DNA of 64,000 nucleotides from Actinoplanes sp. SE50/110 (GTDB lineage: Bacteria > Actinomycetota > Actinomycetes > Mycobacteriales > Micromonosporaceae): positions 882,501-946,500 of the forward strand of contig NZ_LT827010.1 of assembly GCF_900119315.1 (NCBI RefSeq), read 5' to 3'. This document shows positions 10,744-26,941 of the stretch, piece by piece. Position 1 is the stretch's first letter; every line of letters begins with the position of its first letter. Below the pieces are notes generated by a model. It was given only the letters and a program-made list of their open reading frames with translations, made no database searches and had not been told where the DNA came from. The position numbers were made by a program, and so were the translations under genes.

Positions 10744-11658
10744 TCAGATACCACGTCCTCGCTTGTGCAGCGCTGAAAGCACATTCTCCACCTTCACCGC
10801 TCCGGTCATCGCGGCCAGCGCGATCGCGGTCCGGGGTTCCTTCCAGTTCGCCCGCACCGCCTCCTTGCTGAACTGCCAGGCCTGGCTGCGGTTTCCGGTC
10901 GCCGCCGACCAGCAGGCGAGCTGTCCGTACACCCGGGCGGCCCCCGGGCGGCAGCCACTGATCTCCGGGTGCCGCTGCATCATCCAGCGCAGCGAGGAGA
11001 TCTTGGTGGCGTACTCGTACGCGTAGTGCGAACTCCGGCCCCACAGCACCTGCACCAACGGCTCGTCCAGATGCACGATCGGCGAGCGGCGCGCCGCCCT
11101 GAGCAGAAGATCCCAATCCTCGTTCTGGCTGCCCGGCGCATCCTCGGCGACCAGGCCCACCGCGTCCTCGGCCAGCGCCTCCCGGCGGATCAGGAACGAT
11201 GACGAATGCAGCATCGCCATCCGGGACCGGGCCAGGTCGTCGACCGTCACCCGGCTCCGGCCGGCCAGCCGCGGCGTGGTGTGCCCCTCGAACTCCACCT
11301 CGATGGCGCAGGTGGCGAATTCGGCGTCCGGCTCGGCCAGCAGCGCGGCCACCTGGCGACGCAGCTTGTCCGGCAGCCAGCGGTCGTCGTCGTCACAGAA
11401 CGCCACCAGCTCGGTGTCCAGGGCCAGCACCCCGGTGTTCCGGGCGCCGGCCAGGCCGGCGGCCCGCCAATTCGTCAACACCAGCACCGGTACGCCGTCG
11501 GTCTGCGCCAGCAGGTAATCCGGCTCGGTCTGGTCGTAGACGACGACCACCCGAAGCTCACCCGGATATTTCTGGGCGCGCACCGCGGCGATCGACCGTC
11601 GGACCAGCTCGGGGCGGTTCCGAGTGGGGATGACGACCCCGACCGACGGCCAGTTCAT
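10744..11658 (-). CDS. Family 2 glycosyltransferase
   Basis: 304 residues. The GT-A fold begins at once: V-G-V-V-I-P-T-R-N-R-P-E-L-V-R-R. The metal-binding acidic cluster C-D-D-D-D-R-W-L is near residue 95, and the catalytic-region acidic motif is in Q-N-E-D-W-D-L-L. It transfers a sugar from a nucleotide donor to an unknown acceptor at the cytoplasmic face. The ATG at 11658 overlaps the stop of the sulfotransferase gene (ATGA), so the two are co-translated. It probably builds part of the repeat unit of the nearby polysaccharide. Confidence 0.9.
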   Translation of the reverse strand: MNWPSVGVVIPTRNRPELVRRSIAAVRAQKYPGELRVVVVYDQTEPDYLLAQTDGVPVLVLTNWRAAGLAGARNTGVLALDTELVAFCDDDDRWLPDKLRRQVAALLAEPDAEFATCAIEVEFEGHTTPRLAGRSRVTVDDLARSRMAMLHSSSFLIRREALAEDAVGLVAEDAPGSQNEDWDLLLRAARRSPIVHLDEPLVQVLWGRSSHYAYEYATKISSLRWMMQRHPEISGCRPGAARVYGQLACWSAATGNRSQAWQFSKEAVRANWKEPRTAIALAAMTGAVKVENVLSALHKRGRGI

Positions 11659-12587
11659 CGTGACTCCTGCGGGTTCAGGGGGTAGCCGTACGCGCGGAGC
11701 ATCGGCGCGCACACCGCGCCGACCAGGCGGCGCTGCACGGTCGGCAGGGCGCGGACCCACGCGTCGTCGTGCCGCAGCGGCAGCCGGCCCACGGTGAACC
11801 GCATCGGGTTGCCGGCCGCGCTGTGCCCGGCCCGCAGGTCGGCGTGCCCCGGGCGCAGGAAGTCCAGGTCCTCGGGGTGCAGGGTGAGCCCGGCGAAATC
11901 GGCCAGCCGGATCAGCGCGGCCCGCGGGTCGGCCAGGAACTCCTCGTAGCGGATCCGGCGGACCGGCACACCGCGGCGGGCCAGCAGCCCGAAAGCGGCG
12001 TTGTGCGCGTTCCAGAGCAGCGCCGACCGGCCGGGGGAGTAGCGGGTCATCTCCTGCGCGCCGTCGGTCTCCGGGCGGGCCACCCGCTTGGTCCAGGAGT
12101 ACGCGACGCCGCGCGCGTCCCGGACCACGTGCAGCACCCGCAGATCCACCTGGCCGGCCGCGCGCAGCACGTGCGCCAGGGCGGAATGCTTGGACGAGTC
12201 GACGACCAGGTCGGCGCCGGACACCTCGGCGGCCGCGGCGTACACCTTGGCGTAGTAGCCGGCGTACTCCCGCACCGCGGCGCCCGGGTGGGTGGTCGCG
12301 GCCAGCCGCGGGATGTGCCGGGTTCGCTCCACCGCGTCCCGCAACGCGTGCACCCGGTCCACGTCGACGTTGTTCCAGCCGTCGAAGGCGTGCTTGCCCA
12401 CCCGTTTCCAGAAGTCGCAGCCGGAGAACCGCTCCCCGCACCCGCAGCGTTCGTCGTCGCGTAGATCGCGCTGCCACAGGTGGACGACCTCACCGAGCGC
12501 GCAGACCCCGGGCAGCTCACCGAGCAGGCGTTCCACGAGCGTCGTGCCGCTTCGCCCTAATCCGCCCAGAAATAGCACTTGTGCCAC
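11655..12587 (-). CDS. Sulfotransferase (PAPS-dependent)
   Basis: 310 residues. The 5'-phosphosulfate loop is G-G-L-G-R-S-G-T-T-L at residues 8-17. The 3'-phosphate-binding region is V-V-R-D-A-R-G-V-A-Y-S-W near residue 157. A C-G-C-G pair of cysteines near residue 50 is unusual and could be structural. It moves sulfate from PAPS to a sugar hydroxyl or similar acceptor. It is translationally coupled to the glycosyltransferase and divergent from the WecG-like gene. Together with the PAPS synthase-like gene at 24 kb it supports a sulfated glycan. Confidence 0.88.
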   Translation of the reverse strand: MAQVLFLGGLGRSGTTLVERLLGELPGVCALGEVVHLWQRDLRDDERCGCGERFSGCDFWKRVGKHAFDGWNNVDVDRVHALRDAVERTRHIPRLAATTHPGAAVREYAGYYAKVYAAAAEVSGADLVVDSSKHSALAHVLRAAGQVDLRVLHVVRDARGVAYSWTKRVARPETDGAQEMTRYSPGRSALLWNAHNAAFGLLARRGVPVRRIRYEEFLADPRAALIRLADFAGLTLHPEDLDFLRPGHADLRAGHSAAGNPMRFTVGRLPLRHDDAWVRALPTVQRRLVGAVCAPMLRAYGYPLNPQESR

Positions 12588-12649: not shown

Positions 12650-13888
12650 GTGGTTATCGAGGCTTTCGACCGCGTGCACCTGGGTGGCACCGGCATCGAC
12701 CGGATCACCGAGGACGAGGTGGTGGCGGTCGTCCGCGACGCCCTCTCGCACGGCCGCGGCGGCCGCATCATCACCCCGAACGTCGACATCCTGCGCCGCG
12801 CCGCCGAAGACCCGGCCGCCCGCCGCCACCTCGACGACGCCGACCTGATCGTGGCCGACGGCATGCCCCTGATCTGGGCCAGCCGCCTCGGCGGCGTCCC
12901 CCTGCCCGAGCGGGTGGCCGGCAGCAGCCTGATCTGGACCCTCTCCGAGGGCCTGGGCCGCGACACCCGCTCCATCTTCATCCTCGGCGGCACCCCCACC
13001 CCGCGAACCCTGCACGCCCTCCCCGGCCCGGCCTCGTCCTCCCCGGACCGCGCGCTCGCCGCTCTCCGCGACCCGGCCTCGTTCACCACCCCGGACCGCG
13101 CGTCCGCCGCCCCCGGCGACCGTTCGTTTTCCGCCACCCCCGACCGCGCATCGTCCACTGCCCCGGGCCGCCCGTTTGCCGTCCTTTGCGATCGCGCGCC
13201 TTCCGGCGCCCCGGACCGCGACTTCTCGGCTCCGGGGACCGCTGCCGCCCCCGCCACCGAAACGCTGGTCTGGAACTCCCTCTCCGGCGAAACCTGGACG
13301 GCGAATGTCCCGGTCGCCGAGTCCGTCACTCGGCGCCCGCCTGCCGCGCCGACGTCGGGCGATATCGTGCCGGCCGACCCGGCCGCGGAAGCCCCGATCG
13401 TCGGCGGCCGGGGGTCCGCGCCCGCCACCGGCGTCACGGTCCGGGACGTGCGGGCGTCCGGCGCGGTCCGGGCCGCGGTGCGCCTCGCCACCGCGAACCC
13501 CGGCCTGCGGATCGCCGGCGCGCTCAGCCCCCCTTTCGGTTTCGACGACGACGAGAACACCTACGCCGAGGTCTGCGCCCGGGTCACCGCCGCCCAGCCG
13601 GACCTGGTCTTCGTCGGCCTGGGTTTCCCCAGGCAGGAACAGGTCATCGAACGCCTCCGCCGCGACCTCCCGGCCACCTGGTTCGTCGGTTGCGGCGCCG
13701 CCATCAACTTCGTCGCCGGCGACATCCACCGCGCCCCGCGCTGGATGCAACGCACCGGCCTCGAATGGGCCCACCGCCTCACCACCGAACCTCGCCGCCT
13801 GGCCCGCCGCTATCTGCGCCACGACGCTCCATATGCCCTCCGCCTCCTGGCCCGGGCCCGAGCTCGCCGCCGCTCCCGCCGCGCCTGA
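12650..13888 (+). CDS. WecG/TagA/CpsF-type glycosyltransferase with large internal insertion
   Basis: 412 residues from the GTG at 12650, which has the strong RBS AAAGGAGG six bases upstream. The N-terminal part (I-T-P-N-V-D-I-L, A-D-G-M-P-L-I-W-A-S) and C-terminal part (L-S-P-P-F-G-F, F-V-G-L-G-F-P-R-Q-E) are the two halves of a WecG/TagA transferase, which adds a ManNAc-type sugar to a lipid-linked GlcNAc. Family members are about 240-260 residues. Here about 150 residues of Pro/Asp/Arg/Ala low-complexity sequence (roughly 118-265, with recurring P-D-R-A) split the domain after S-I-F-I-L-G-G-T-P. The frame stays open throughout. Confidence 0.85.
   Translation: MVIEAFDRVHLGGTGIDRITEDEVVAVVRDALSHGRGGRIITPNVDILRRAAEDPAARRHLDDADLIVADGMPLIWASRLGGVPLPERVAGSSLIWTLSEGLGRDTRSIFILGGTPTPRTLHALPGPASSSPDRALAALRDPASFTTPDRASAAPGDRSFSATPDRASSTAPGRPFAVLCDRAPSGAPDRDFSAPGTAAAPATETLVWNSLSGETWTANVPVAESVTRRPPAAPTSGDIVPADPAAEAPIVGGRGSAPATGVTVRDVRASGAVRAAVRLATANPGLRIAGALSPPFGFDDDENTYAEVCARVTAAQPDLVFVGLGFPRQEQVIERLRRDLPATWFVGCGAAINFVAGDIHRAPRWMQRTGLEWAHRLTTEPRRLARRYLRHDAPYALRLLARARARRRSRRA
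12999..13440 (+). repeat. Low-complexity insertion inside the WecG-like gene
   Basis: Irregular repeats around CCCCGGACCGCGC encode the P-D-R-A segments. They resemble the GC-rich arrays found between genes in this window, rather than the flanking conserved coding sequence. The boundaries are estimated from where family conservation stops and resumes. Confidence 0.6.
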
Positions 13889-13937
13889 CCCGCCATCCCG
13901 GAGCGCCTGCACCGCCCGCCCGAGGTCGCCCGTCCGC

Positions 13938-14099
13938 GACGGCCCCGCTCGCCGGGAGTCGCCCGACGGCCCCGCTCGCCGGGAGTCGCCCGACGGCCCC
14001 GCTCGCCGGGAGTCGCCCGACGGCCCCGCTCGCCGGGAGTCGCCCGACGGCCCCGCTCGCCGGGAGTCGCCCGACGGCCCCGCTCGCCCGTAGTCGCCC
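13938..14099. repeat. 27-bp tandem repeat, six copies
   Basis: The unit starts GACGGCCCCGCTCGCCGGGA and ends GTCGCCC. The first five copies are identical and the sixth has changes near its end. There are no spacers, so it is not a CRISPR array. It lies in the gap between convergent genes. Confidence 0.9.
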
Positions 14100-14173
14100 G
14101 CCCGGGACCCCCGCCCGGGACCGCCCGGGACCCCCGCCCGGGACCGCCCGGGACCCCCGCCCGGGACCGCCCG
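14100..14173. repeat. 23-bp tandem repeat, about three copies
   Basis: Copies of CGGGACCCCCGCCCGGGACC plus GCC follow directly after the 27-bp array. They contain internal CCCGGG palindromes. Confidence 0.8.
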
Positions 14174-14200
14174 GAAGGACCGACCGCCCGCGGTCGTGCG

Positions 14201-14740
14201 TCAGGGGATCGGGCCGCGGCGGGTGACGGAACGCCGCCCGCGCGGGCCGGCCAACCCGCGCGGCGAACCGCAACGGACCATCGTGGCCGGCGGCGCGTCG
14301 ATCAGCGGCTGGGCGTGGTCGGCATCCGAATACCCCGCCTGCCAGGGGAACCGGTTTCCCGGGTCGGGCCAGACCAGCTGTTGCAGGCGGACCCGCCGCC
14401 CATACCGCGCGAGGGCGGCGCCCGGCCACAGTTCCGCGGTCGGCGACCCGTTCAGCAGCACCACGTCCTGCTCGACGATCAGATCGGTCACCCGTCGCCC
14501 GTGCCGGAACCGGGCGCCCTCCTCGTGCACCCGCCCGGCCAGCTCGTTGAGCAGCTGGTGGGCCAGGTCGGGCGGCAGCCCGGCGATGATCAGCTCCGGG
14601 TGGCTGTCGGCGGTCAGCCCGACCGTGTAGGCGAACGGCGCCACGTCGTCGGCCGCTTCCTCGTCGGTGGGCACCACATGCACCACGGCCCAGCCGAACT
14701 GCTGGATGATCTCGGTCTGCTCACGGAAGAAGTCGGACAT
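14201..14740 (-). CDS. DUF4262 family protein
   Basis: 179 residues. The body (F-G-W-A-V-V-H-V-V-P-T, F-A-Y-T-V-G-L-T, H-P-E-L-I-I-A-G-L) matches the DUF4262 family as I recall it; its biochemical role is not established. The ATG at 14740 is chosen over an upstream in-frame ATG at 14800 because AGGGGGCC precedes it and the family starts there. The C-terminal ~25 residues are arginine-rich and may be an extension into repeat-derived sequence. It is divergent from the VOC gene. Confidence 0.75.
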   Translation of the reverse strand: MSDFFREQTEIIQQFGWAVVHVVPTDEEAADDVAPFAYTVGLTADSHPELIIAGLPPDLAHQLLNELAGRVHEEGARFRHGRRVTDLIVEQDVVLLNGSPTAELWPGAALARYGRRVRLQQLVWPDPGNRFPWQAGYSDADHAQPLIDAPPATMVRCGSPRGLAGPRGRRSVTRRGPIP

Positions 14741-14845
14741 CGCGGGGCCCCCTGGCTCGGTGCTGACGGACAGCGGGGCGCCGGACGGGGCCGGCACCAC
14801 TGAGCCTCACTATGGAACACATGTACGACACTTTTCCGGGACTCG

Positions 14846-15321: not shown

Positions 15322-16329
15322 TCAGCGCCCGACGTTGAAGTAGGGATCCTTGGCGAGCGCGTGGAACGCCTTGAAAGCCGCCTTGTCCCCGCTCAGCTGG
15401 AACTGCTGGTTGGGCCCGTTCCCCGTCGGGTCCGACTCGAAATAGGCGACCGCTTTGATCTGCCGGTTCGCCTTGAAGGTGCGTTCCGCGTCGCGCAGCC
15501 ACGCCGCCCGGTTCGCGGATCCCCAGGCTTTCGCCACCCCGAACTCCCCGATGATGATCGGTTTCGGCCGTTGTGCCGCCCACTGCAGGAAGGGCCCCAT
15601 GAGTTGCCCGATCGGCTGGAAGTCGGCGCCGGCGTAAACGTCCACGCAGGTCCAGTCCACCTGATCGTCGCCCGGGTAGAACTGCTGGGCATCCCCGCGC
15701 TGGAAGCCTTCGGCGGTCGGGCACCACACCCAGGACACGTTGTCCGCGTGCTCCCGCTGGAAGATCGCCCGCACGTACTTCCACGCCGCGATGTAGTCGG
15801 CGCCGGACCACATGGTGGCCCGCAGGTTGGGCCGGTCCATCTCCCAGCGCATCCGGAGCAGCACCGGCCGCCCGATCCTCCGGATCGCCTCGGCCTGCTG
15901 CCGGATCAGCCGGTCGTGTTCGCCGTCCAGGATGGACCGGTTGTCGCCGGTCGCCCAGCTGATCATCAGCGACTGCCCCTGAGCCAGGAACTCCTGATCG
16001 GATTCGGTCCCGACCATCTGGTCGAAGCGACGATACGTGTTCAGGATGTCGAGCCGGCGACCCAGCGACGCCTCCAACGTGTCGACCGCTTCCAGGCGCC
16101 CGATGTGGGTGAGCTGGTCCGGCTTGATCCAGGCGCCGACGTACGCCCCCGTCGCCGGAGGCGTGAACGGTCCGGCGGCGAACGGACCGTCCTGCACCGC
16201 GATGGCCGGCGGCCGCGCGGTCAGGTCCGGCGACGGCGGCGGCGCGGGATTCCCGCGGTGGCTGCCACTGCAGGCGGACAGGATGAGGAGTACGCCGACG
16301 AGCACCCCGCCGAGCCCGGCCCTACGCAT
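15322..16329 (-). CDS. GH26-like glycosidase lipoprotein
   Basis: 335 residues. The signal peptide ends in lipobox L-S-A-C with Cys20 as the lipidation site, followed by a Pro/Ser linker. The TIM-barrel domain has the acid/base candidate Glu163 in R-M-R-W-E-M-D and the nucleophile candidate Glu262 in I-I-G-E-F-G, the two GH26 positions. It would act on beta-glycans outside the membrane. It is the last gene of the polysaccharide operon and overlaps the methyltransferase gene by 8 bases. A role in trimming or releasing the polymer is inferred. Confidence 0.82.
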   Translation of the reverse strand: MRRAGLGGVLVGVLLILSACSGSHRGNPAPPPSPDLTARPPAIAVQDGPFAAGPFTPPATGAYVGAWIKPDQLTHIGRLEAVDTLEASLGRRLDILNTYRRFDQMVGTESDQEFLAQGQSLMISWATGDNRSILDGEHDRLIRQQAEAIRRIGRPVLLRMRWEMDRPNLRATMWSGADYIAAWKYVRAIFQREHADNVSWVWCPTAEGFQRGDAQQFYPGDDQVDWTCVDVYAGADFQPIGQLMGPFLQWAAQRPKPIIIGEFGVAKAWGSANRAAWLRDAERTFKANRQIKAVAYFESDPTGNGPNQQFQLSGDKAAFKAFHALAKDPYFNVGR

Positions 16330-17059
16330 GGACCCGCCGCGCCGTGTACAGCACGTTCACCGCGTAACCGTCGGTGCCGGGCAGCCGCCGGGCGGCCGCG
16401 TCGGCGAGCCGGGCCAGCCGGTTGTCGTGCAGGGACGGGGTGAGCATGGAGAAGCCGCGCCGTTCGACGATCTCGAAGCCGTGCCGGTCGAGCAGCGCCG
16501 CGACCTCCTCGTGGGAGAGCTCGGCGAACCAGCGTTCGCCCTGGTGCCGCCGGGCCCGCAGGTGCCGGACGGAGCCGGCGTTGCCGTGATTCTCGACGAC
16601 GAGCAGGCCGGAGCCGCGGTGCGGCAGGGCTTTCGCGGCGAAGGCGAGCGCCCGGTCGCGGACCGTGTCGTCCACGTTGAGCAGCAGCCGGAAGATGGTC
16701 ACGATGGCCGGGAAGCCGGCCGCGACCGGCGCCGGGACCGGTCCGTCGATCGACACCCGGTGCCAGTACGCGCGGGAGCCGACCTCGGCCGCTTTCGTCA
16801 TCATCTCGGCCGACGTGTCGTATCCGTGCGCTTCCCGGACCAGGCCGTGCAGGGTGCGGATGGCCCGCCCGGTGCCGCAGGCGAAGTCGTGCTGGACCGG
16901 CGGGTGCTGACCCTCGAATTCGCGGCGGACCAGGGCACGCAGGTAGTCGCGCTGCCGGTCGTTGATGCGGGACGCGTAACTGTCCGGCGCGTACGTGATC
17001 GACTCGTACTTCTCGACCGCCTCGGTGTCCTGGAACACCTCGGTGTAATCGCTGGTCAA
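16322..17059 (-). CDS. SAM-dependent methyltransferase
   Basis: 245 residues from a TTG start that overlaps the flippase stop (TTGA) and has AGGAGG four bases upstream. The class I motif I region is H-D-F-A-C-G-T-G-R-A-I; G-Y-D-T-S-A-E-M-M follows as motif II. It is probably a sugar or polysaccharide methylase, by operon context. No ATG start exists near the family N-terminus (T-S-D-Y-T-E-V-F), so TTG is the best choice. Confidence 0.82.
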   Translation of the reverse strand: MTSDYTEVFQDTEAVEKYESITYAPDSYASRINDRQRDYLRALVRREFEGQHPPVQHDFACGTGRAIRTLHGLVREAHGYDTSAEMMTKAAEVGSRAYWHRVSIDGPVPAPVAAGFPAIVTIFRLLLNVDDTVRDRALAFAAKALPHRGSGLLVVENHGNAGSVRHLRARRHQGERWFAELSHEEVAALLDRHGFEIVERRGFSMLTPSLHDNRLARLADAAARRLPGTDGYAVNVLYTARRVHA

Positions 17060-18612
17060 CTCGCCTCCTGGGTCTTTCGTCGGGTGAACGCGCCGAGTTC
17101 GAGCCGGCCCCGGAGCAGCCAGGCGCCGGCGGCGAAGGCCGGCACGGCTGCCGCGACGGCCGGCGCCAGTCCGGCCGGGCCGTCCCCGAGCAGGGCGGTC
17201 ACCGCCCGGGGCAGCAGGCCGAAGCAGCCGGTCGAGAGCAGCGCGGCGGCCCGGGTGCCCGGGCCGAACGGATGCAGGCGGGCGCCGCGGAACACCTGGA
17301 TCAGCGGCAGCAGATTGTTGGCGACGATCGCGCCGGCCAGGCCCACGGCGGCCCCCATCGCGCCGTACCGGGGGATCAGCACCACGTCCAGGCCGATCGT
17401 GACGACCAGGGCGATCAGCACGTTGCCGAGGTTCAGCGAGGTGCGCCCGGCCATCGACAAGACCATGTCGACCATGCCGCAGCCGGTGGCGACCAGCATG
17501 GCCGCCGCGAGCAGCCGGACCACCGGGGTGCCGGCCGTGTACCCGGCGCCGAAGACACGGAGGTAGTACGGCGCGAACAGGATGACGAGCAGGCTGACCG
17601 GCCAGGTGATCAGCACCAGCCAGCCGGTGGCCACCTGGTACAGGCGATTCGCGGCGTCCCGGTCGCCGATGCTCAGCGCCTCGGCCAGCCGGGGCTGCAC
17701 GGACTGGGAGATGCCCTGGTTGGCGAACTGGATCAGGATCACGAACCGGCCGGCGACCGCGTAGACGGCGGCCGGCCCGAGGCCGCCCAGCGCGGCGACC
17801 AGCAGCACGTCGACCCGTTGCAGGGCGAGCTGGGCCACGGCGGCCAGCGCGCGCGGTGCGGTGAACCGCCAGAATTCCCGGTGCAGCTGCCGGCGTTCGG
17901 CCCGTCGGCTGGCCGCCGCGGCGGGGCGTCCGGTCAGGTAGAGCCGCCTCACCGCGTACGCCGCAAACAGGGTCACCGGGAGGTAGGGAGCGGCCCAGGC
18001 CAGCGCGAAGACCGGCAGCGAAGCTGCCGCCAGGAGGCCGGCCGCACCGACCCCGAGCAATTGCAGTGCGCTGCGCAGCGTCCGGTCCAGCAGCACGGTG
18101 GGGCGCATCGAGCGGTACCCACGAGTGATCGTCAGCAGCACGTCGGTGAGTGCCTGCAGCGGGATGAAGACGGCCAACACCCGCAAACCGGTGAGGTACG
18201 CACCGGCCGAGTCGTGCGCGGTGACCCGGGCGATCTGCGGCGCGCCGGCCCACACCGCCACCGCGAGGATCAGCGAGAACACGAAGACCGGGACGAGGCC
18301 GGTACGCAGGCAGGTGCCGAGCAGGTGAGCACGCCCGGTGGCCCGCAACCGGGCCGGCCAGTAGACCAGCCCGGTGTTGGTGCCCAGCTTGGCCAGCCCG
18401 CCGGCCAGCACGAACGCTGCGGTGGCGGAGAAGAACGCGCCCGCCTCGTCGGTGCCGAGGCGACGCGCCACCACCCAGGTGACGATCACGCCGGCGCCTC
18501 CGGCCAGTGCCGATCCGGCCATGTTGGCGAGTCCGCCACGGGCCGCGCCGCGAGTGCCCCGGCCCGGATCGGCCCGCGGTGGCGCCGGGTCGGTCAGCGG
18601 GCCGGCCGTCAC
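17056..18612 (-). CDS. Polysaccharide flippase (Wzx/MVF-like)
   Basis: 518 residues with about 13-14 transmembrane helices. The N-terminal helix contains G-A-G-V-I-V-T-W-V-V-A-R-R-L-G-T-D-E-A-G, typical of the polysaccharide-transport (PST/MOP) flippases. It would move the lipid-linked repeat unit across the plasma membrane. The GTG start overlaps the sulfotransferase stop (GTGA), and its own stop overlaps the methyltransferase start. Nearly identical layouts occur in Wzx/Wzy-type clusters. Confidence 0.9.
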   Translation of the reverse strand: MTAGPLTDPAPPRADPGRGTRGAARGGLANMAGSALAGGAGVIVTWVVARRLGTDEAGAFFSATAAFVLAGGLAKLGTNTGLVYWPARLRATGRAHLLGTCLRTGLVPVFVFSLILAVAVWAGAPQIARVTAHDSAGAYLTGLRVLAVFIPLQALTDVLLTITRGYRSMRPTVLLDRTLRSALQLLGVGAAGLLAAASLPVFALAWAAPYLPVTLFAAYAVRRLYLTGRPAAAASRRAERRQLHREFWRFTAPRALAAVAQLALQRVDVLLVAALGGLGPAAVYAVAGRFVILIQFANQGISQSVQPRLAEALSIGDRDAANRLYQVATGWLVLITWPVSLLVILFAPYYLRVFGAGYTAGTPVVRLLAAAMLVATGCGMVDMVLSMAGRTSLNLGNVLIALVVTIGLDVVLIPRYGAMGAAVGLAGAIVANNLLPLIQVFRGARLHPFGPGTRAAALLSTGCFGLLPRAVTALLGDGPAGLAPAVAAAVPAFAAGAWLLRGRLELGAFTRRKTQEAS

Positions 18613-19487
18613 CCGCGGCGCCAGATCGGCGTGTGCCCCAGCCAGCCGGCCAGCGCCTCGTCGTGGGACTGGTAGTAGGCGCCCAGTTCCCGGCGCAGCT
18701 GCGGGTCCATGTCGGCCTGCCGGGGGCGGGCGTTGTGCCGCTCGAAGGCCGGTCGTTCCAGGTGCGGTGGCAGCCCGAGGAAGTGGCAGACCTCGTCGTA
18801 CACCGGCTCCGGGTCGCTGAAGAACCGTTCGCTCTCCACCACGTGGATGCGTTCCCGGCCGACGTGCTGCGCCATCACGCTCAGATACCGGGCGTATTCG
18901 CCGCGCCCCCGGTAGGCGTGGTGCTGGTGCGCGAAGCTGTAGTACGCCGGGTCGTCGGCCAGCCGTTCCTCCTGCCGGTGCAGGCGGGCCGGCTCCAGCG
19001 CCATCGCCGCACCGAAGTCACGCTCGGTCTCGAAACCCCGCGCCACCTCGTGGTGATGCTGTGAGTAGGCGCGCTCCACCGGATCGCGCACCAGAACCAC
19101 GATCCTGGCGTACGGCAGGTCCCGCGCGATCCGGGCCACCGCCTGGGGGTGGTACATGTAGTACGGACTGGACTCGAAGGTCTGTGCCGGCACCCCGAAC
19201 CGCTCGGCGATCTTCTCGGCCGCCCGCCGCGCCGGGAAATGCGCGCGATACCAGTCGAGCCCGCGGTGGTACGACGTGTCGAAGTAGTGCACGCCCTTGT
19301 GGAGCACCGCCTTGAGCACCACCGGATGTGCGGCCAGCGCCCGGTACAACGAGGTGGTGCCGCACCGCTGCCCGCCGCAGATCAGGAAGGACGGCAGCAT
19401 CCGGTGGTCGGCGGTGAGCCGGCCGTACGAGCGGGAGCCCAGGTGCACCACCGCCTTCATCGGCGCGGGCAGATTGCGGACGTTCAT
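18609..19487 (-). CDS. Sulfotransferase (heparan-sulfate-type fold)
   Basis: 292 residues. The PAPS 5'-phosphosulfate loop is C-G-G-Q-R-C-G-T-T-S at residues 37-46. The 3'-phosphate motif is I-V-V-L-V-R-D-P-V-E-R-A-Y-S near residue 127. K-G-V-H-Y-F-D is the position of the catalytic Lys/His region seen in glycan sulfotransferases. The ATG at 19487 is preferred to GTG at 19490 because GGAG is five bases before it. It sits inside the polysaccharide operon and is the second sulfotransferase in the region. Confidence 0.9.
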   Translation of the reverse strand: MNVRNLPAPMKAVVHLGSRSYGRLTADHRMLPSFLICGGQRCGTTSLYRALAAHPVVLKAVLHKGVHYFDTSYHRGLDWYRAHFPARRAAEKIAERFGVPAQTFESSPYYMYHPQAVARIARDLPYARIVVLVRDPVERAYSQHHHEVARGFETERDFGAAMALEPARLHRQEERLADDPAYYSFAHQHHAYRGRGEYARYLSVMAQHVGRERIHVVESERFFSDPEPVYDEVCHFLGLPPHLERPAFERHNARPRQADMDPQLRRELGAYYQSHDEALAGWLGHTPIWRRG

Positions 19488-20725
19488 CACAGCTCCTCAA
19501 CACGCCGGATGAGCACCGGCAGCAGCCAGGTACCGAGCACGCCCAGCCGGGCGCCCGCCTCGGCCTGGCGGTCGGTCAGGTAGCGCACGGCCAGGTCGAC
19601 CAGGTAGAGCAGGGCGGTCGTCTCGCGGGCCACCGCGGCCACCCCGAACGGCGCGAGCAGCTCGTCGGCCCGGCGCACGGTGGCCTCCACCGCACCCCGC
19701 GCGTCACCGCTGGTCTGGATCCGTCTCTGCAGCTCGTGATGCACCGCGTCGAAGCCGAGCGGAACCCCGGTGGCGAACCGCTCCCAGTCCCAGACGAGCA
19801 GCGCGTCGGTGAGGTTGGCCATGTTCCACGGGGCCCAGTCGCCGTGCCAGGCGCCGTAGCGCAGGGTGTGCTCGCCGCTGTGCGCGGCGAGCAGGTCGAC
19901 CGCGGCGGACAGCGCGGCGCCCTCGGCCCGGTCGGAGACCGCGGCCAGCCGGGCCCGCAGCTCGTGCCAGTAAGAGCTCTGGGTCAGCGGTCCGGTGGTG
20001 TAGCCGCAGCATCCGGCGATGTCCAGCATGGCGGCGGTGAGCCGGCGCGGGGTCAGCGGCGCGCGCGGCAGCCACACCGGCAGTGCCGACTGGACCAGCA
20101 CCTGCATGCCGCGCCACTGCCCGGCGTGCATCACCCGGGGGATGGTCAGCTTGGTCAGTCCGCTGGAGCCGATCGCGTTCAGCGCCGCGGTCTCCGCCTT
20201 GACCAGGCGCTGGGTGAGCGGCCCGGCACCGATCTTGCCGAACGCGAAGGTCTCGCCGTCCGGGGTGAGCAACTGCAGCACCGGTTTGCGGTTGGCCCGG
20301 GCCGGGCCGATGTGGACGCTGACCGACAGGTCGCGCCGCAGCGCGTCGCTGAGGTAGCCGTCGATGCTGGCCGACACCGGGCCGGAGACCCGGATCCGGT
20401 CGCGGAAGACCAGCCGGTCGGTCCGGGTGCGGACCGCGGCCACCACGGCGTCCCGCTTGAACCGGGCCATCCGGGACTGCGGCTCGGCGTACCGGCGGAC
20501 CGCGGCCGCGGCGACCGCGGCGGAGGTGTTCGGCACCAGCAGGCGGGGGCGGTGCGCGTTCGGCACCACCAGGTATTCCACGATCGTGTTGCCCGCACCG
20601 TCGTCCTCGCGGGCGGGGCGGCACGGCGGCGGATAGAGCAGCGCCATGACCTCGGTCAGATACTGGGTACGCAGTGCGGCGTCGCCCGCCGTGAGCTCGG
20701 CTGGCGCCGTTTTGACCGGACTCAA
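19487..20725 (-). CDS. APH-fold phosphotransferase-like protein
   Basis: 412 residues. The C-terminal half has the kinase catalytic loop H-G-D-W-A-P-W-N and the metal-binding D-W-E, as in aminoglycoside phosphotransferase-fold enzymes. The N-terminal ~120 residues (R-T-Q-Y-L-T-E-V-M-A-L-L onwards) are not a family I know. The TTG start overlaps the O-antigen-ligase stop (TTGA); no nearer ATG preserves the N-terminus. In this operon a sugar or lipid-linked intermediate is a more likely substrate than an antibiotic, but that is inference. Confidence 0.7.
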   Translation of the reverse strand: MSPVKTAPAELTAGDAALRTQYLTEVMALLYPPPCRPAREDDGAGNTIVEYLVVPNAHRPRLLVPNTSAAVAAAAVRRYAEPQSRMARFKRDAVVAAVRTRTDRLVFRDRIRVSGPVSASIDGYLSDALRRDLSVSVHIGPARANRKPVLQLLTPDGETFAFGKIGAGPLTQRLVKAETAALNAIGSSGLTKLTIPRVMHAGQWRGMQVLVQSALPVWLPRAPLTPRRLTAAMLDIAGCCGYTTGPLTQSSYWHELRARLAAVSDRAEGAALSAAVDLLAAHSGEHTLRYGAWHGDWAPWNMANLTDALLVWDWERFATGVPLGFDAVHHELQRRIQTSGDARGAVEATVRRADELLAPFGVAAVARETTALLYLVDLAVRYLTDRQAEAGARLGVLGTWLLPVLIRRVEEL

Positions 20726-22095
20726 TTGTCGTCGTTCCCCTCGATCCAGTTGCGCCAGAGCAGCGCGTACGCCAGAACCATGAAAGCCAGGGGGGTGACC
20801 AGCGAGTTGTACCAGAGCATCGCGGAGAACGAGCTGACCAGCGCGGCGCTGCCGGCCACCCCGATCGGGGTCCGGTCCCGGCGGAACCGCCACAGCCCGT
20901 ACGCGAAGAAGCCCAGGTAGCCCGCGGTGCCCACCGCGCCGTGCGAATACAGCAGCTGCCACAGCTGCCCGTTGCCGCCGATCGTGAAGTTGCCGCAGCG
21001 CTCGCACTCCGAGCTCTCGCCGACCGTGATCGAGTTGCGGCCGCCGAGGGTGTTGCGGGTGCCCCCGTACCCGATCACCGGCGAACCGGTGAACCCGGCC
21101 ATGGCCCGCTCGATCAGGAACGAGCGGACCCCGTTCGACTTGCCGTTGTCCAGCCGGGCCTGCACGGTGGTGCCCAGCGGGGTGGCCGCCAGCGCCACCG
21201 CGAGCGCCCCGCCCGCCACCAGCAGCACGCCGAGCACCCACAACTTGCCGGCCAGCACGTAGCGGACCGCGGCGTACCCGCCGATGATCCCCAGGCCGAT
21301 CCACAGGCCGCGGTTCAGCGAGACGACCGCCGGCACGATCGAGACCAGCAGGAACACCCACAGCACGGCGCGCCGGCCCCGGCTGCGCGCGGCCGCCGCG
21401 GCCACCAGCAGCCACGGCACCAGCAGGCAGAAGTTGTTGCCCCAGGTGTTGGTGTACCCCCAGGGGGCGGCCGGACGCGGGGCGTCACCGCCGACGATGT
21501 CCATGATCTGCGCGGCGTACGGGTGGACCAGCGACCGGACGAAGCCCTTGCTGCGCACCCCCTGCGGCAGCAGCCACTCGACCGGCGAGGTGAACTCGAA
21601 GTGCCCGGCCACCATGCCGAGCAGCCCGCCCAGCACGGTCAGCACGAACATGCCGGCCAGCAGCCGGACCATCCGCCGCCGCGGCAGCTCCCGCTCGGTC
21701 AGGTTCCCGGCGTAGACCAGCAGCACGGTCAGCGAGAGGTACATGGCCAGCTTGTAGAGCACCGCGGGCAGCCGGCCGACGGCCCGCTCGACCACGGTCT
21801 GCGCCGGGTCGGCGCCCAGTGCGGCGATGCTCACCACCACCGCGACCAGGAACACCACCCACCAGGTGAAGCCCGGTGGCAGGCGCAGTGGGCGGCCCGC
21901 GGCCCGGCGGCGGATCAGCAGGAACAGCATCGGCGCGGCGACCAGCGGGAAGATCAGCACGCCCAGGCCGAGCGCCCACCAGAGCGGGTAGAGCAGCAGG
22001 ATCCCGGTCACCGGCCAGGCCGGCAGGCTGAGGTCCTTACCGGCCCGGTGCTGGGCCGGTCCGGCGGGCGGCGCCGCCGGGACGACCGTGATCAC
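20722..22095 (-). CDS. O-antigen ligase / Wzy-type polymerase family membrane protein
   Basis: 457 residues with about 11-12 transmembrane helices and a large extracytoplasmic loop after mid-protein. The loop region has G-Y-G-G-T-R-N-T-L-G-G-R-N-S, similar to the Wzy_C signature region. It would polymerise or ligate repeat units outside the membrane. The GTG start overlaps the stop of the Wzz/Wzc-like gene, and its stop overlaps the next gene. Polymerase and ligase cannot be told apart from sequence. Confidence 0.85.
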   Translation of the reverse strand: MITVVPAAPPAGPAQHRAGKDLSLPAWPVTGILLLYPLWWALGLGVLIFPLVAAPMLFLLIRRRAAGRPLRLPPGFTWWVVFLVAVVVSIAALGADPAQTVVERAVGRLPAVLYKLAMYLSLTVLLVYAGNLTERELPRRRMVRLLAGMFVLTVLGGLLGMVAGHFEFTSPVEWLLPQGVRSKGFVRSLVHPYAAQIMDIVGGDAPRPAAPWGYTNTWGNNFCLLVPWLLVAAAAARSRGRRAVLWVFLLVSIVPAVVSLNRGLWIGLGIIGGYAAVRYVLAGKLWVLGVLLVAGGALAVALAATPLGTTVQARLDNGKSNGVRSFLIERAMAGFTGSPVIGYGGTRNTLGGRNSITVGESSECERCGNFTIGGNGQLWQLLYSHGAVGTAGYLGFFAYGLWRFRRDRTPIGVAGSAALVSSFSAMLWYNSLVTPLAFMVLAYALLWRNWIEGNDDN

Positions 22096-23813
22096 TTCTC
22101 GTCGCCGTCCGTGGCGCCCGAGCCTTCGACAACCGAGGTCTGCTCGCCGGTGTCGCCGTCGGCCGGCCGCTGCCGGACCGTGGCCGAGACCGGCTCACCG
22201 CGGTCCTTGAGTGCCGACAGCTGCTGGGTGGCCTCCTCGACGACCGGCTCGGTGCCGGTCGGCGGCAGGGTCACCGCGGGCGCGGCGGCCGGCTCGGCGG
22301 TGTGCTTGACGTTGAGCCGGGGCAGCACCACCGCGCCGAGCAGCCGGGTGCCGACCCGCTGCAGCTGCTCGGTCGCGTCGACCAGGGCCGGCCGGCGGGT
22401 GCGGCGCAGCTCGACCGCGAGGATCGCCGCGTCGGCGAGGCTGGCCAGGCTCTGCGCGTCGGCGCTGCTGCTGGTCGACGGGGCCTCGATCACCACGTAC
22501 CCGCCCTGCCGGCGCAGCGCCTCCAGGGTGTCGCGCAGCCGCTGCGACTGGATCAGCCCGGCCGCGGTCGCCGCGCCGCCGGTGGTGATCACCCGCAGCG
22601 CCGGGATCCGGGCGGTGTGCTGCAGCACCCGGCTCAGCGACACCCGGCCGGCCAGCATCTCGGACAGGCCGGGCACCGGGGCGACCCCGAGCATCCGGGC
22701 CAGTGGCGCGGCGTCCACCACGCTGTCCGGCAGGTGCGCGCCGATCAGCACCACGTCGCTGCCGGTGCGGGCCAGGGCGGCCGCCAGGTTCGCCGCGACC
22801 AGCGTGCTCGCCGAGCCGCGGCTGGTCCCGGTCACCACGATCACCCGGTCGTGCGGGTCGAGGCTGGCCAGCACCTCGTTGCGCAGGCGGTTGAAGACGC
22901 GGCCGCCCGGCCCGTACGGCTGCAGCACGTCGTCGAAGTGCGGCGTGGTCCGCTCGTCGAGCGTGGCCAGCACCGCGACCCGGCCGCGGTCACGCACGTC
23001 GGCCGCGGTCACCAGGCGCCGGTCGAACCGCTCCCGCAGGTACGCCAGGGCCAGCCCGAGCAGCAGCCCGATCATTCCGCCGGTGGCGATGTCCAGCAGC
23101 GTGTTCGGGCTGGACGGGGTGTCCGGCAGCCGGGCGTCGCTGATGATCGCGCCGGCGCCGACCGTGGTGGTGGTCAGCTCGTTGAGCCGGCCGGTGAGGC
23201 TGTTCAGCTGGTTCTGCGAGTTGCTGCGCAGACTCTGCAGGTTGCTCTCCGCGGAACTGCCCGGCCGGGCGTCGGCCAGCTTGGCGTTGATCCCGGTGAG
23301 CGCCGTGGTGAGCTGCTTGACCTTCAGGTTCAGTGAGGCGATCTGCTTGTCCAGCAGGCCGCGTGCGGTCTCCTCACGGTTGCGCAGGTAGGCCTCGGCG
23401 AACGCGTGCGAACCGGCCTGGGCCTTCATCGGGGTGTCCGCCTGGAAAGTGATCACCAGAACCGTGGTGTTCGCCGGTACCTGCACCGACACCGAATGCG
23501 CCAGCTCCAGCGGCGACACCGTGGTGCGCATCAGCGCGGCGGCCTTGGCGGCGACCGCGCCGGAACCGACCAGCTGGGCCTCGGTGTCCAGGTTGACCGC
23601 GCCCTTGGTGCGGCCACCCTGCGCGTTCACGTCCTGGTCGACCGACTGGACCAGGACCGACGACGAGGACTCGTAGACGCGCGGGAGCGAGTGCGTGACG
23701 GCGGCGCCCACGCCCAGGCCGGCGGCCGTGGCCACCAGGGCGATCCACCAGTGCCGGCGAACCGCGCCCAGGTAGTGCGCGACATCGGAGGACGGTGGGC
23801 GTGACGCTTCCAT
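22092..23813 (-). CDS. Wzz/Wzc-like chain-length protein with degenerate BY-kinase domain
   Basis: 573 residues. An N-terminal Wzz domain (R-R-H-W-W-I-A-L-V and the first TM helix at ~20-40) is followed by a long periplasm-side coiled region and a second TM helix near residue 235. The cytoplasmic domain is BY-kinase-like but the ATP sites are lost: the Walker A position reads G-T-S-R-G-S-A-S-T (Lys replaced by Ala, about 325-337), Walker A' reads V-L-I-G-A-H-L and Walker B reads V-V-I-E-A. There is no C-terminal tyrosine cluster. It probably acts as a scaffold that sets polymer length. Confidence 0.85.
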   Translation of the reverse strand: MEASRPPSSDVAHYLGAVRRHWWIALVATAAGLGVGAAVTHSLPRVYESSSSVLVQSVDQDVNAQGGRTKGAVNLDTEAQLVGSGAVAAKAAALMRTTVSPLELAHSVSVQVPANTTVLVITFQADTPMKAQAGSHAFAEAYLRNREETARGLLDKQIASLNLKVKQLTTALTGINAKLADARPGSSAESNLQSLRSNSQNQLNSLTGRLNELTTTTVGAGAIISDARLPDTPSSPNTLLDIATGGMIGLLLGLALAYLRERFDRRLVTAADVRDRGRVAVLATLDERTTPHFDDVLQPYGPGGRVFNRLRNEVLASLDPHDRVIVVTGTSRGSASTLVAANLAAALARTGSDVVLIGAHLPDSVVDAAPLARMLGVAPVPGLSEMLAGRVSLSRVLQHTARIPALRVITTGGAATAAGLIQSQRLRDTLEALRRQGGYVVIEAPSTSSSADAQSLASLADAAILAVELRRTRRPALVDATEQLQRVGTRLLGAVVLPRLNVKHTAEPAAAPAVTLPPTGTEPVVEEATQQLSALKDRGEPVSATVRQRPADGDTGEQTSVVEGSGATDGDEK

Positions 23814-23944
23814 CGGTTTCCGCGGCCTTTCGAGGAGGATTTTGGGCGTTTCGCCCCAAGGGCTAACGCCCACTCCCAGCCGCGAGTGATGGGTCAGCTC
23901 GACCCCATGCCTCGCAGGGTTGGTGAAACCACCACGCATTGCGC

Positions 23945-24014
23945 CCGCTGACGTCGAGAGGACCGAGAAAGGCCAGGCGAAGCCCTGGTCTTCTGCGGCT
24001 CTCGACGTCAGCGG
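23945..24014 (-). terminator. Long perfect inverted repeat between operon genes
   Basis: CCGCTGACGTCGAGAG (23945-23960) is exactly repeated in inverse at 23999-24014, with an imperfect inner stem (AGGCCAGG/CCCTGG). It separates the PAPS-synthase-like gene from the Wzz/Wzc-like gene. There is no T-tract. It could attenuate or terminate transcription, or be a binding site. Confidence 0.5.
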
Positions 24015-24032
24015 CAAGGGGCGCGACGCCGG

Positions 24033-25553
24033 TCAGCTCAGCTTGGGCTCCACCCAGCCGTTCTCGACCAGGTAGCCGAGGACCATCTCGACCGCTTCGG
24101 CCACCGACATCGTGCTGGTGTCGATGGTCAGTTCGGCGTCCAGCGGCTCCTCGTACGGGTCGTCGATCCCGGTCATGCCGCGCAGCTGACCGGCCCGGGC
24201 CCGCGCGTACAGGCCCTTACGGTCCCGTCGCTCGCAGACCTCCAGCGGGGTGGCCACGTGGACGAGCAGGAACCCGGCGCCCGCCTCGGCCGCCATCCGG
24301 CGCACCGCGGTGCGGGCCGCCTCGTACGGCGCGATCGGGCAGGCGACCGCCATCCCGCGGTGCCGGCCGACCTCGGCGGCGACCCAGCCGATCCGGCGCA
24401 CGTTGCGGTCCCGGTCGGCCTTGCTGAAGCCCAGCCCGGCGGTCAGCTCCCGGCGCACCACGTCGCCGTCGAGCAGGGTGACCGTGCGCTCGCCGGTCTC
24501 CCGCAGCGCGTCGGCCAGGTTGCGGGCGATCGTCGACTTGCCGGAGCCGGACAGGCCGGTGAAGAACAGCACCAGGCCGCGGTGCCGGCGCGGCGGCCGG
24601 ACCCGGGCCAGTTCCTTGGCGACCGCCGGCGGGGTGTGCCACTCGGGCAGCGGGAAACCGCGGTCCAGCAGGTCGTCGATCTCGTCCGGGGTCATCGCCA
24701 GCCGGCGGTTGCGCGGCGGGATGTCGTCGCGCCAGCGCCACTGGCCGTCCCGGTTGTCGTAGGCGAGTTCGCGCGGCACCAGTACCCGCAGCCCGGCTCC
24801 GGAGAGCGACTCGCCGGTGGAGAGCACGTGGGTCACGCCGTACGCCGCGGCGACCCGGGAGCGCAGCAGCGCGTCGCGCATCTCGTCGCCGTGCGGCATC
24901 AGCGGGACCGCGACCACGGTGGCCGGGGGCATCCGGTCGCGGGCCGCGAAGACCGCCCGGACCAGTGCCTCGGGCGGTAGGCCGTCCGGCCCGTGCCCGC
25001 TCACCGGAATCATGATCAGCAGGTGGGCCGCGAGGGTGCGGGCGGCGTGCGCGATCTGGGCGAGCTGCGGGCGGTGCAGCGGCCGGTCGGCGATCACGCC
25101 GAGCACCCGGCCCGGTGGCAGCAGCGCCTTGACCTCGGCCGGGGAGCGGCGCAGACGCTGGAACGGGCCGTGCCCGCCGTCGCCCATCCGCTGCACCGGG
25201 CCGCCCACGCCGTACCGGTTGTCGGCGATCCGCCAGACGTCGCGCGCCTCGATCGCGGCGATCGGCGCGCCCTCCAGGTCGGTCAGCACCACGGTGCGCC
25301 GTGCCGGGTCGGCCGGGTTCAGGCGCTCGGCGAGGTCGAGCGGGATCTCCAGGGTCACCGCGACCGGCCACGGGGTGCCGTCGGCCAGTCGCCCGGTGCG
25401 GGCCAGCGCGACCAGGTCGGCGCGGACCAGGAATCCGGTCAGCGGCGCGTACGCCCCGGAGAGCAGCAGTTCGAGATCGGCCAGCTCGTACGGGCGCGGC
25501 GCGAACGAGGGTGCGTCCCGGAGGACGTCTTCGGGCAGTACCGAGCCACTCAC
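24033..25553 (-). CDS. Fused ATP-sulfurylase-like / adenylylsulfate kinase
   Basis: 506 residues. The C-terminal APS kinase (from about residue 325) is intact: P-loop F-F-T-G-L-S-G-S-G-K-S-T, L-D-G-D-V-V-R, L-G-F-S-K-A-D-R, and K-G-L-Y-A-R-A. It makes PAPS from APS. The N-terminal domain is homologous to ATP sulfurylase (F-P-L-P-E-W matches the C-terminal signature), but the Q-x-R-N-P-x-H-x-x-H motif reads A-D-R-P-L-H-R-P-Q and the G-R-D-H-A-G site is absent. PAPS supply for the two nearby sulfotransferases is the obvious role. The start is GTG or ATG near 25553, with a weak RBS. Confidence 0.88.
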   Translation of the reverse strand: MSGSVLPEDVLRDAPSFAPRPYELADLELLLSGAYAPLTGFLVRADLVALARTGRLADGTPWPVAVTLEIPLDLAERLNPADPARRTVVLTDLEGAPIAAIEARDVWRIADNRYGVGGPVQRMGDGGHGPFQRLRRSPAEVKALLPPGRVLGVIADRPLHRPQLAQIAHAARTLAAHLLIMIPVSGHGPDGLPPEALVRAVFAARDRMPPATVVAVPLMPHGDEMRDALLRSRVAAAYGVTHVLSTGESLSGAGLRVLVPRELAYDNRDGQWRWRDDIPPRNRRLAMTPDEIDDLLDRGFPLPEWHTPPAVAKELARVRPPRRHRGLVLFFTGLSGSGKSTIARNLADALRETGERTVTLLDGDVVRRELTAGLGFSKADRDRNVRRIGWVAAEVGRHRGMAVACPIAPYEAARTAVRRMAAEAGAGFLLVHVATPLEVCERRDRKGLYARARAGQLRGMTGIDDPYEEPLDAELTIDTSTMSVAEAVEMVLGYLVENGWVEPKLS

Positions 25554-25714: not shown

Positions 25715-26941
25715 GTGAGACAGACCTTACGTTCTGCCGCGTTCGGCACCGCCTTCACGATGGCCGTGGCGGTCACTCTGGCCTGGGCCTGGACCGGCGG
25801 CGTGGAGCAACTCGGCCGGCTGCCCGCCGGCGACCCGGTGGTCTCCGCCGCACCGGCCGGCCCACACCCGGGCACGACGGCCGGCACCGCGGCCGACCCC
25901 GCGCCGCCCGGCTCCGCCCGGCTCCGCCAGGCCGTGCTCAGCGGCGCCGACAGCCCGCTGACCGGGAGCTTCCCGGCCCGGGCCGCCGTCCACCGGACCT
26001 GCACCACCGGCCGGCTGCTGGTGCCCACCTGCGGCATCCTGTGGGGGGTGGCGCCCGGTGCGCGCACCGACGACCACGGGGCCGAGGCGCTCGCCGAGTT
26101 CGAGCGCAAGACCGGGCGGCAGCAGGCCATCTTCCACGCCTACCACCACGGGATCCGGCAGCTGTTCCCGACGCCGCAGGAGATCGCGATCGCCCGGCAG
26201 CCCGGCAAGAAGCGGATCCTGCTGCTCAACTGGAAGCCGGAGAGCGCCTCCTGGGCGGCGATCGCGCGCGGCGACCGGCGTACCGACGCGTTCCTCGACC
26301 AGCTCGCGGTGCACCTGCACCGCGACTTCCGGGAGCCGTTCTTCTTCGCGATCCACCACGAGGCCGAGGACCAGGTCCGGGAACGTCCCGGGTCGGGGTA
26401 CACCGCGAAGGACTACGCGGCGATGTTCCGGCACGTGGTGCGGCGGCTGCGGGCCCACGGCGCGACGAACGTGGTCACCGTGCTGGTGCACATGGCGTAC
26501 GTGCCGCACACCACAAAGAGCTGGTTCACCGACATGTACCCGGGGGACTCGGTGGTCGACTGGATCGGGTTCGACACGTACTCGTACAGCGACCCCGGTT
26601 ACGGCCACGGCGACTTCGCCGAGCTGCTCAACCGGCGCTCCGCGCTCAAGCCGCGCTGGCCCGGCTTCTACAACTGGGTGCGCGCCGCCCACCCCCGCAA
26701 ACCGCTGATGGTCGCCGAGTGGGGGGTGTGGTTCAGCAAACGCCACCCCGGGCACATGGCCGCGTTCTACCGCGAGGTGGGCCAGCAGATCGGGCATTTC
26801 CCGGCGATCAAGGCGATGGTGCACTTCGAGACACCGGCCAACCAGAAGGGCCAGGACTCGTCGGTGGACTGCACCCCGGCCGCCCTGCGCGAATATCGCA
26901 AGCTGGGCCGGCTTCCGGTCTTCCAGGTCGCGGTCCGCTGA
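25715..26941 (+). CDS. GH26-like secreted or membrane-anchored glycosidase
   Basis: 408 residues. An N-terminal hydrophobic segment (about 9-29) serves as a signal or anchor, followed by a Pro/Ala linker. The catalytic domain has the acid/base candidate Glu216 in I-H-H-E-A-E and the nucleophile candidate Glu335 in V-A-E-W-G-V-W, in the GH26 arrangement. It is divergent from the polysaccharide operon and is a distant paralogue of the lipoprotein at its other end. The GTG start is set by the promoter immediately upstream. A perfect hairpin follows. Confidence 0.82.
   Translation: MRQTLRSAAFGTAFTMAVAVTLAWAWTGGVEQLGRLPAGDPVVSAAPAGPHPGTTAGTAADPAPPGSARLRQAVLSGADSPLTGSFPARAAVHRTCTTGRLLVPTCGILWGVAPGARTDDHGAEALAEFERKTGRQQAIFHAYHHGIRQLFPTPQEIAIARQPGKKRILLLNWKPESASWAAIARGDRRTDAFLDQLAVHLHRDFREPFFFAIHHEAEDQVRERPGSGYTAKDYAAMFRHVVRRLRAHGATNVVTVLVHMAYVPHTTKSWFTDMYPGDSVVDWIGFDTYSYSDPGYGHGDFAELLNRRSALKPRWPGFYNWVRAAHPRKPLMVAEWGVWFSKRHPGHMAAFYREVGQQIGHFPAIKAMVHFETPANQKGQDSSVDCTPAALREYRKLGRLPVFQVAVR

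Follow-up and report, generated by a model that had tools for sequence, protein, structure and literature searches.

The closest described counterpart of the pathway considered here is the wps-1 cluster of Actinoplanes missouriensis (wpsA-K, AMIS_7280-7380), which, together with the adjoining AMIS_7390, has been predicted to make a sulfated polysaccharide (PMC13390465, June 2026; our statements on this report refer to the available parts of its text). Deletion of wpsA, C, G, H, I, J or K resulted in squashed sporangia, deletion of wpsF in distorted, connected sporangia, and deletion of wpsE in a mixture of normal and abnormal ones; deletion of wpsD had no effect. AMIS_7390 is not switched on together with wps-1, and its deletion caused severe sporangium defects that the authors had not expected. 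The requirement of these genes for sporangia is established in A. missouriensis alone, proof of sulfation is lacking according to the authors, and both the sulfation of the polymer and the cause of the AMIS_7390 mutant failure were left open (PMC13390465). We analyzed the corresponding locus of Actinoplanes sp. SE50/110, whose 9.24 Mb genome forms one contig, in a stretch of 64,000 nucleotides at 0.88-0.95 Mb, hereafter called the window.

The 11 wps-1 genes stand in the same order in the window, with the gene for a two-domain adenosine 5'-phosphosulfate (APS) kinase adjoining them. We consider it very probable that the window encodes the Actinoplanes wps-1 pathway for a Wzx/Wzy-type sulfated polysaccharide, served from a distance by a cysQ-cysD-cysN (cysQDN) operon and the sugar-phosphate transferase (PGT) encoded beside it; a sulfated Wzx/Wzy-type glycan is proposed as the product with high confidence. 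A sulfated exported polymer had already been suggested for this DNA by a sequence-only reading; it is still the best interpretation and was proposed independently for A. missouriensis, although ester sulfate is unproven (PMC13390465). As the core idea of a sulfated-polysaccharide cluster is in print for the sister species, it is not new. What our comparison adds is an explanation for the published mutant phenotypes, with AMIS_7390 as the candidate main maker of 3'-phosphoadenosine 5'-phosphosulfate (PAPS) and the transferase of the cysQDN operon as the candidate starter, and evidence that the module is more widespread in the class.

Gene order and conserved active sites of the cluster

The order common to the window and wps-1 is GT2, sulfotransferase, GT26, DUF4262, GH26, methyltransferase, Wzx, sulfotransferase, kinase, Wzy and Wzz, and the genome that we take as A. 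missouriensis 431 (G058) is colinear with the window, its cluster genes being 50-92% identical. Six stop/start overlaps (five of 4 bp, one of 8 bp) link seven minus-strand genes at 23813-15322, beginning with the Wzz-type gene (ATG at 23813) and ending with the GH26 gene (end at 15322). The PAPS-synthase-like gene (25553-24033) stops 219 bp before the Wzz-type ATG and is thus an unlinked eighth gene; this gap, together with its separate transcription (PMC13390465), rules it out as a member of the overlapping operon. The sequence-only reading had listed these eight genes with seven of them joined, and its open reading frames, domains and overlaps were found again with small corrections. It had also placed a second sulfotransferase and two glycosyltransferases 3-5 kb away: the genes are present, but at 2.7 kb (sulfotransferase 2), 3.7 kb (GT2) and 1.4 kb (WecG/TagA GT26) from position 15322. 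A second GH26-like gene, which it missed, lies on the plus strand at 25715-26941 (GH26 2e-7), divergent from the APS kinase gene; no deletion of its counterpart is reported in the available text of PMC13390465.

The synteny check in related genomes showed that the core gene set is kept together. Among 40 family loci centered on the APS kinase, the polymerase was found in 22, and all 22 also contained the Wzz-type protein, the kinase, sulfotransferase 1 and the flippase. The other 18 had none of these five core genes within the fetched stretch, and in several of those genomes the cluster sits on the other side or elsewhere. When loci were centered on the polymerase, the remaining four core genes followed in identical order in 20/20. 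The polymerase was matched (E <= 1e-20) in 123 of the 150 family genomes, including distant relatives with about 33% identity; named Actinoplanes records share up to 86% identity with the window protein, and the matched records belong mostly to Micromonosporaceae genera. One stretch (L072, genome G120) held sulfotransferase 2 and GT2 near the APS kinase with the rest of the cluster missing, and the polymerase was not found in that genome. Loci L107-L111 carry a second cluster type, with a polymerase about 42% identical and Alg13/Alg14-like glycosyltransferases; by eye, the one in L108 includes a third sulfotransferase.

The module extends beyond the family. Matches to the kinase profile (E <= 1e-20) occurred in 67 of 394 class genomes and 33 of 138 genera; three of these 67 genomes are members of the own family, and the weaker matches include some that are split. 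From the 64 genomes outside the family we fetched 20 loci, taking into account both score and coverage of different families. In every one of the 20, sulfotransferase 1 lay no more than about 7 kb from the kinase; the polymerase was present in 19, and 18 had the flippase, 13 sulfotransferase 2, four the APS kinase and six CysN (at least 72% identity). Four loci of one other family (L225, L226, L227 and L233) combine kinase, sulfotransferase 1, APS kinase and CysN in one stretch; L225, L226 and L233 also hold polymerase and flippase, which L227 does not, while L227 additionally holds CysD, CysQ and a PGT match that is only weak and partial. In Cobetia and Vibrio, too, genes for CysN, CysD and an APS kinase are part of the cluster for a chemically characterized sulfated capsule (PMC11766843, PMC11641403). 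This arrangement, observed without reference to the window, is the strongest evidence for sulfation. A plasmid search returned one match, an 11.85 Mb record of Nonomuraea gerenzanensis that aligns with 76% of the kinase at 38% identity.

Sulfotransferase families accept a wide range of substrates, and the two enzymes of the window might act on a small molecule or a lipid, in which case the Wzx/Wzy polymer would be unsulfated and the neighboring genes would have no joint product. We regard this as very unlikely. It is favored by the fact that nobody has isolated a sulfated glycan and by a third Sulfotransfer_3 gene elsewhere in the same genome (G000:C1:3025774-3026373, outside both the window cluster and the cysQDN locus), and it is opposed by the position of sulfotransferase 1 between kinase and flippase in all 20 polymerase-centered loci, by its constant proximity to the kinase outside the family, and by the squashed sporangia of the wpsH mutant, which match those of the flippase or polymerase mutants (PMC13390465).

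Both PAPS-dependent sulfotransferases, WpsH (sulfotransferase 1; 18609-19490, minus strand; Sulfotransfer_1 5e-15) and WpsB (sulfotransferase 2; 11655-12587, minus strand; Sulfotransfer_3 7e-14), keep the 5'- and 3'-phosphate-binding motifs for PAPS. In WpsH the key residues of both motifs are kept across 41 sequences; in WpsB the DSSK and RD motifs are kept in 34/34, and the N-terminal motif occurs in the 24 with a gene call that extends that far. For the kinase WpsI (19487-20725, minus strand, TTG start), the relevant domain match was not found in the window protein itself, and an APH match was obtained for 8 of 19 aligned orthologs. K161, E175, D293, N298 and D310, which we take to be the complete catalytic set, are invariant in 19/19 sequences. 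The predicted structure has an aminoglycoside-phosphotransferase (APH)-type fold, the leading Foldseek hits being homoserine kinase, FN3K/fructosamine kinases and APH enzymes at 11-20% identity. On the strength of the conserved residues and the model, WpsI is likely an active small-molecule or sugar kinase.

The Wzz/Wzc-like chain-length protein WpsK (22092-23813, minus strand) matches Pfam Wzz at about 1.4e-6 to 1.8e-6 and NCBIfam eps_fam at 3e-23, below the cut-off of the latter. Its Walker A stretch lacks the lysine in 41/41 sequences and the tails are free of tyrosine in 36/41, and an active bacterial tyrosine kinase (BY-kinase) of the Wzc type in its C-terminal domain was therefore rejected. 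No convincing Pfam match of its own was found for the window polymerase, the Wzy-like or O-antigen-ligase-like WpsJ (20722-22095, minus strand); its assignment rests on its conserved position and on the sub-threshold Wzy_C match (9e-7) of its ortholog in L095. With the Wzx-type flippase WpsG (17056-18612, minus strand; MatE 5e-13), the co-polymerase and the glycosyltransferases, the Wzx/Wzy set is present together. GT2 corresponds to WpsA (10744-11658, minus strand; Glycos_transf_2 1e-20), and the WecG/TagA/CpsF-type GT26 to WpsC (12650-13888, plus strand; PF03808 2e-50, in two stretches). The latter contains a low-complexity insertion of about 155 residues rich in Pro, Ala and Asp (window 12998-13460), on both sides of which the orthologs align; it is a feature of the window as compared with wps-1 of A. 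missouriensis and may be either tolerated or impairing to the enzyme. Short GC-rich direct repeats are visible by eye after the GT26 gene (window 13931-14180).

The S-adenosylmethionine (SAM) methyltransferase WpsF (16322-17059, minus strand, TTG start; Methyltransf_23 8.5e-5, below the curated cut-off) carries an HDFACGTGR motif in 29/29 sequences. In the GH26-like lipoprotein WpsE (15322-16329, minus strand; GH26 7e-5), two glutamates that we presume to be catalytic are kept in 25/25, and in the second GH26-like protein the H-H-E and E-W-G motifs are kept in 22/22. Since both retain candidate catalytic glutamates, they may cut or release polymer.

The two-domain APS kinase and the probable source of APS

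The protein encoded at 24033-25553 (minus strand; Pfam APS_kinase 7e-54), the ortholog of AMIS_7390, fuses an eroded ATP-sulfurylase domain to an intact APS kinase. We aligned 41 family sequences, that of the window and those of the 40 loci. Of the motif Q-x-R-N-x-x-H-x-x-H, which we take to be the catalytic motif of ATP sulfurylase and which is also visible in the aligned 1m8p row, only the first histidine survives (41/41): Q, R and N are absent from all 41 sequences, and the second histidine is replaced by Q in 40 and by D in one. The aspartate of the G-R-D motif is likewise gone in 41/41, and the stretch behind it lacks some 25 residues that solved structures have, while the P-loop and DGD motifs of the APS kinase are intact. 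The same erosion was seen in the seven homologs from outside the family that are aligned across this site, and in the four that accompany the module in another family. The structural model (mean pLDDT 89), in which both domains keep their fold, best matched 3cr8, the hexameric APS kinase of Thiobacillus denitrificans.

On the basis of these losses we rejected a bifunctional PAPS synthase. With the sulfurylase residues gone, the protein can be expected to turn APS into PAPS, not sulfate into APS, and APS would have to come from elsewhere. The "own PAPS supply" claimed by the sequence-only reading thus holds for the second step and fails for the first. Nor is the protein bound to the cluster: the APS kinase is present in 60/60 genomes of the genus and 149/150 of the family, including many that are cluster-free. 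As the kinase is family-wide and the cluster less common, the cluster draws on a family-wide PAPS maker rather than having its own. Within the SE50/110 genome the protein is the sole convincing APS kinase (185 bits) and also the sole match to the ATP-sulfurylase family; the only other PF01583 match just exceeds the cut-off (21.7 versus 21.1 bits) and is fitted far better by AAA_33.

Given that the only convincing kinase lacks sulfurylase residues, APS must come from CysD (with CysN). A PF01507 search found one CysD in the genome, with CysN, which lacks a kinase tail, adjoining; the count refers to CysD. The gene sits in a PGT-cysQ-cysD-cysN operon near 8.59 Mb (L245 6239-11107, 8.594-8.599 Mb), in which the CysQ assignment is below the curated cut-off. 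By eye, the neighbors of this operon look like pth, ribosomal L25, prs and glmU, and similar-looking neighbors adjoin cysQDN in L227, of another family.

The consumer side was assessed through CysH, which shows a CC...CxxC pattern that we take to mark APS reductases needing no PAPS. Its NCBIfam scores are ambiguous, with models named for PAPS reductase above their cut-offs and the APS-reductase model just below its own. If the pattern is right, PAPS would serve sulfation alone, and this would account for the phenotype of the AMIS_7390 mutant. The published reading ties AMIS_7390 to amino-acid sulfur metabolism (PMC13390465), whereas our analysis points to PAPS formation from APS. On the alternative that comes closest to the published reading, the protein would be a working bifunctional enzyme for cysteine synthesis, as its annotation as sulfate adenylyltransferase/APS kinase and the retained fold of both domains might suggest, and the mutant phenotype would reflect sulfur starvation. 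We consider this highly improbable in view of the sulfurylase residues lost in 41/41 sequences, the separate CysD and CysN, the CysH pattern as we interpret it, and the published mutants, which looked normal on agar, though on media that may supply cysteine (PMC13390465).

A candidate initiating transferase beside cysQDN

The available text of PMC13390465 names no initiating transferase for wps-1. The SE50/110 genome has five PF02397 genes, one of them directly upstream of cysQ-cysD-cysN, and this PGT scores above the threshold set for the exopolysaccharide polyprenyl glycosylphosphotransferase family. We inspected the CysQ neighborhood in 80 stretches and scored 78 genomes, the own one included. 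They were chosen by cluster status and genus with PGT status unseen, not at random, and genomes holding only the second-type cluster were scored as lacking type I.

A PGT stood beside cysQDN in 36/39 genomes with the type I cluster and in 2/39 without it (Fisher value 5e-16, which ignores relatedness and overstates the evidence). It was present in every sampled cluster genome for 25 of 28 cluster-bearing genera and in no cluster-free genome for 14 of the 16 genera having such genomes. Two genera (g50 and g51) each hold both states, with PGT and cluster in agreement; g32 agrees except for genome G164. In G112 the PGT lies 2.8 kb from CysQ and was scored present. Because of this co-occurrence, we suggest with moderate confidence that the PGT upstream of cysQ starts the polymer. 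The operon cysQDN itself was rejected as a cluster marker, being also present in cluster-free genomes: only the PGT tracks the cluster. CysQ lies within 50 kb of the polymerase in 24/98 genomes, mostly of few genera. Five g31 genomes have a CysQ-like gene 9-11 kb from the second-type cluster. No report of the PGT-cysQDN link or of the class-wide distribution was found in the literature searched, most subscription papers being outside its reach.

Proposed pathway and comparison with known systems

From the observed gene content, conserved active sites and co-inheritance we infer the chemical steps and the product as follows. CysD/CysN, encoded near 8.59 Mb, would make APS, and the kinase half of the 24033-25553 protein would convert it to PAPS, its sulfurylase half being a remnant without catalytic function that may aid assembly or regulation. 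The PGT upstream of cysQDN would probably start the repeat unit on a lipid carrier; GT26 and GT2 would extend it, the two sulfotransferases would add sulfate, and CysQ would remove the by-product 3'-phosphoadenosine 5'-phosphate (PAP). The methyltransferase would probably methylate and the APH-fold kinase probably phosphorylate the repeat unit, which would then be flipped by Wzx and polymerized by the Wzy-like protein to a length set by the Wzz-type protein with its dead kinase domain. Trimming or release of the polymer may be the task of the two GH26-like proteins.

Several observations weigh against this scheme. Sulfate in a polymer made by these genes has been chemically demonstrated by nobody, and sporangia of the mutant in wpsB (sulfotransferase 2) looked normal, with about tenfold fewer spores released (PMC13390465). 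The APS kinase is conserved also in genomes without the cluster and must have other uses, and CysD and CysN follow CysQ in 20/20 cluster-free loci, so that sulfate activation does not track the cluster. No initiating sugar-phosphate transferase was recognized among the cluster genes, and the genome has four further PF02397 genes besides the proposed starter. In three genomes with the cluster (G136, G123 and G129) the inspected CysQ copy has no PGT beside it, G136 having one further CysQ copy; conversely, two genomes scored cluster-free have the PGT, namely G161, which is 77% complete, and G164, which holds a polymerase fragment only.

The same pathway might deliver a sulfated polymer bound to the wall, attached by the Wzy-like protein or another ligase, rather than a free exopolysaccharide or matrix. 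This is unlikely, though far from negligible. Actinomycete walls carry diverse glycopolymers, the weak match of the polymerase ortholog is to the O-antigen ligase/Wzy family, and the module occurs in many genera beyond those with a known sporangium matrix. Set against this, no attachment gene of the LytR-CpsA-Psr type was recognized among the scanned cluster proteins, and the squashed sporangia and the matrix argument of PMC13390465 fit a matrix component.

A restriction of the cluster to one genus or to sporangia was set aside, as the module is found in many genera and other families. With somewhat less than even confidence, we tentatively extend the proposed scheme to a class-wide pathway for a sulfated and phosphorylated glycan, not a sporangium specialty, built from a conserved core (Wzz-type protein, polymerase, APH-fold kinase, sulfotransferase and flippase), the two-domain APS kinase, and a PGT-cysQ-cysD-cysN operon that would link the start of the chain to sulfate activation and to the removal of PAP. 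A sulfated surface glycan may accordingly be a common, unrecognized trait; the remark of the sequence-only reading that such glycans are rarely described in soil actinobacteria agrees with the literature found.

The remaining genes need brief mention. WpsD is a DUF4262 protein (14201-14800, minus strand; DUF4262 5e-34). GalT and a DeoR-type regulator (window 8785-10658) flank the cluster in the window as well as in G058. Judged from their position, they would correspond to AMIS_7260 and AMIS_7270 of A. missouriensis, neither of which is needed for sporangia (PMC13390465).

Two enzymes share the architecture of the APS kinase. The Entamoeba protein has the same two domains, according to the available part of its description. 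The T. denitrificans enzyme, the best fold match, also joins a degenerate ATP-sulfurylase domain to an APS kinase; the title of its structural report (Gay et al. 2009) states that ATP-sulfurylase activity is absent. The window protein is 34-35% identical to it and has lost more of the sulfurylase catalytic residues, and here the gene is core to an actinobacterial family.

At the level of the product, a repeat unit both sulfated and phosphorylated would make the pathway a bacterial analog of glycosaminoglycan assembly in animals, in which sulfotransferases act alongside a sugar kinase. Likened by description, the synechan cluster (presumably the one named xss) belongs to Synechocystis, which is, unlike Actinoplanes, a cyanobacterium. 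As far as its report is available, that cluster makes a sulfated exopolysaccharide with a sulfotransferase, Wzx and Wzy, as proposed here (PMC8205485). The statement that, among bacteria, only cyanobacteria are known to make sulfated polysaccharides (PMC13390465) is too narrow, because the sulfated capsules of Cobetia marina KMM 1449 and Vibrio sp. KMM 8419 have been chemically characterized (PMC11766843, PMC11641403, both in part). Their clusters, also likened by description and not by sequence, resemble the present pathway in combining sulfotransferases with cysN, cysD and an APS kinase, and in Cobetia with cysQ too; they differ in belonging to Gram-negative marine bacteria that export the capsule through an ABC transporter (kps), in place of the Wzx/Wzy route proposed for Actinoplanes.

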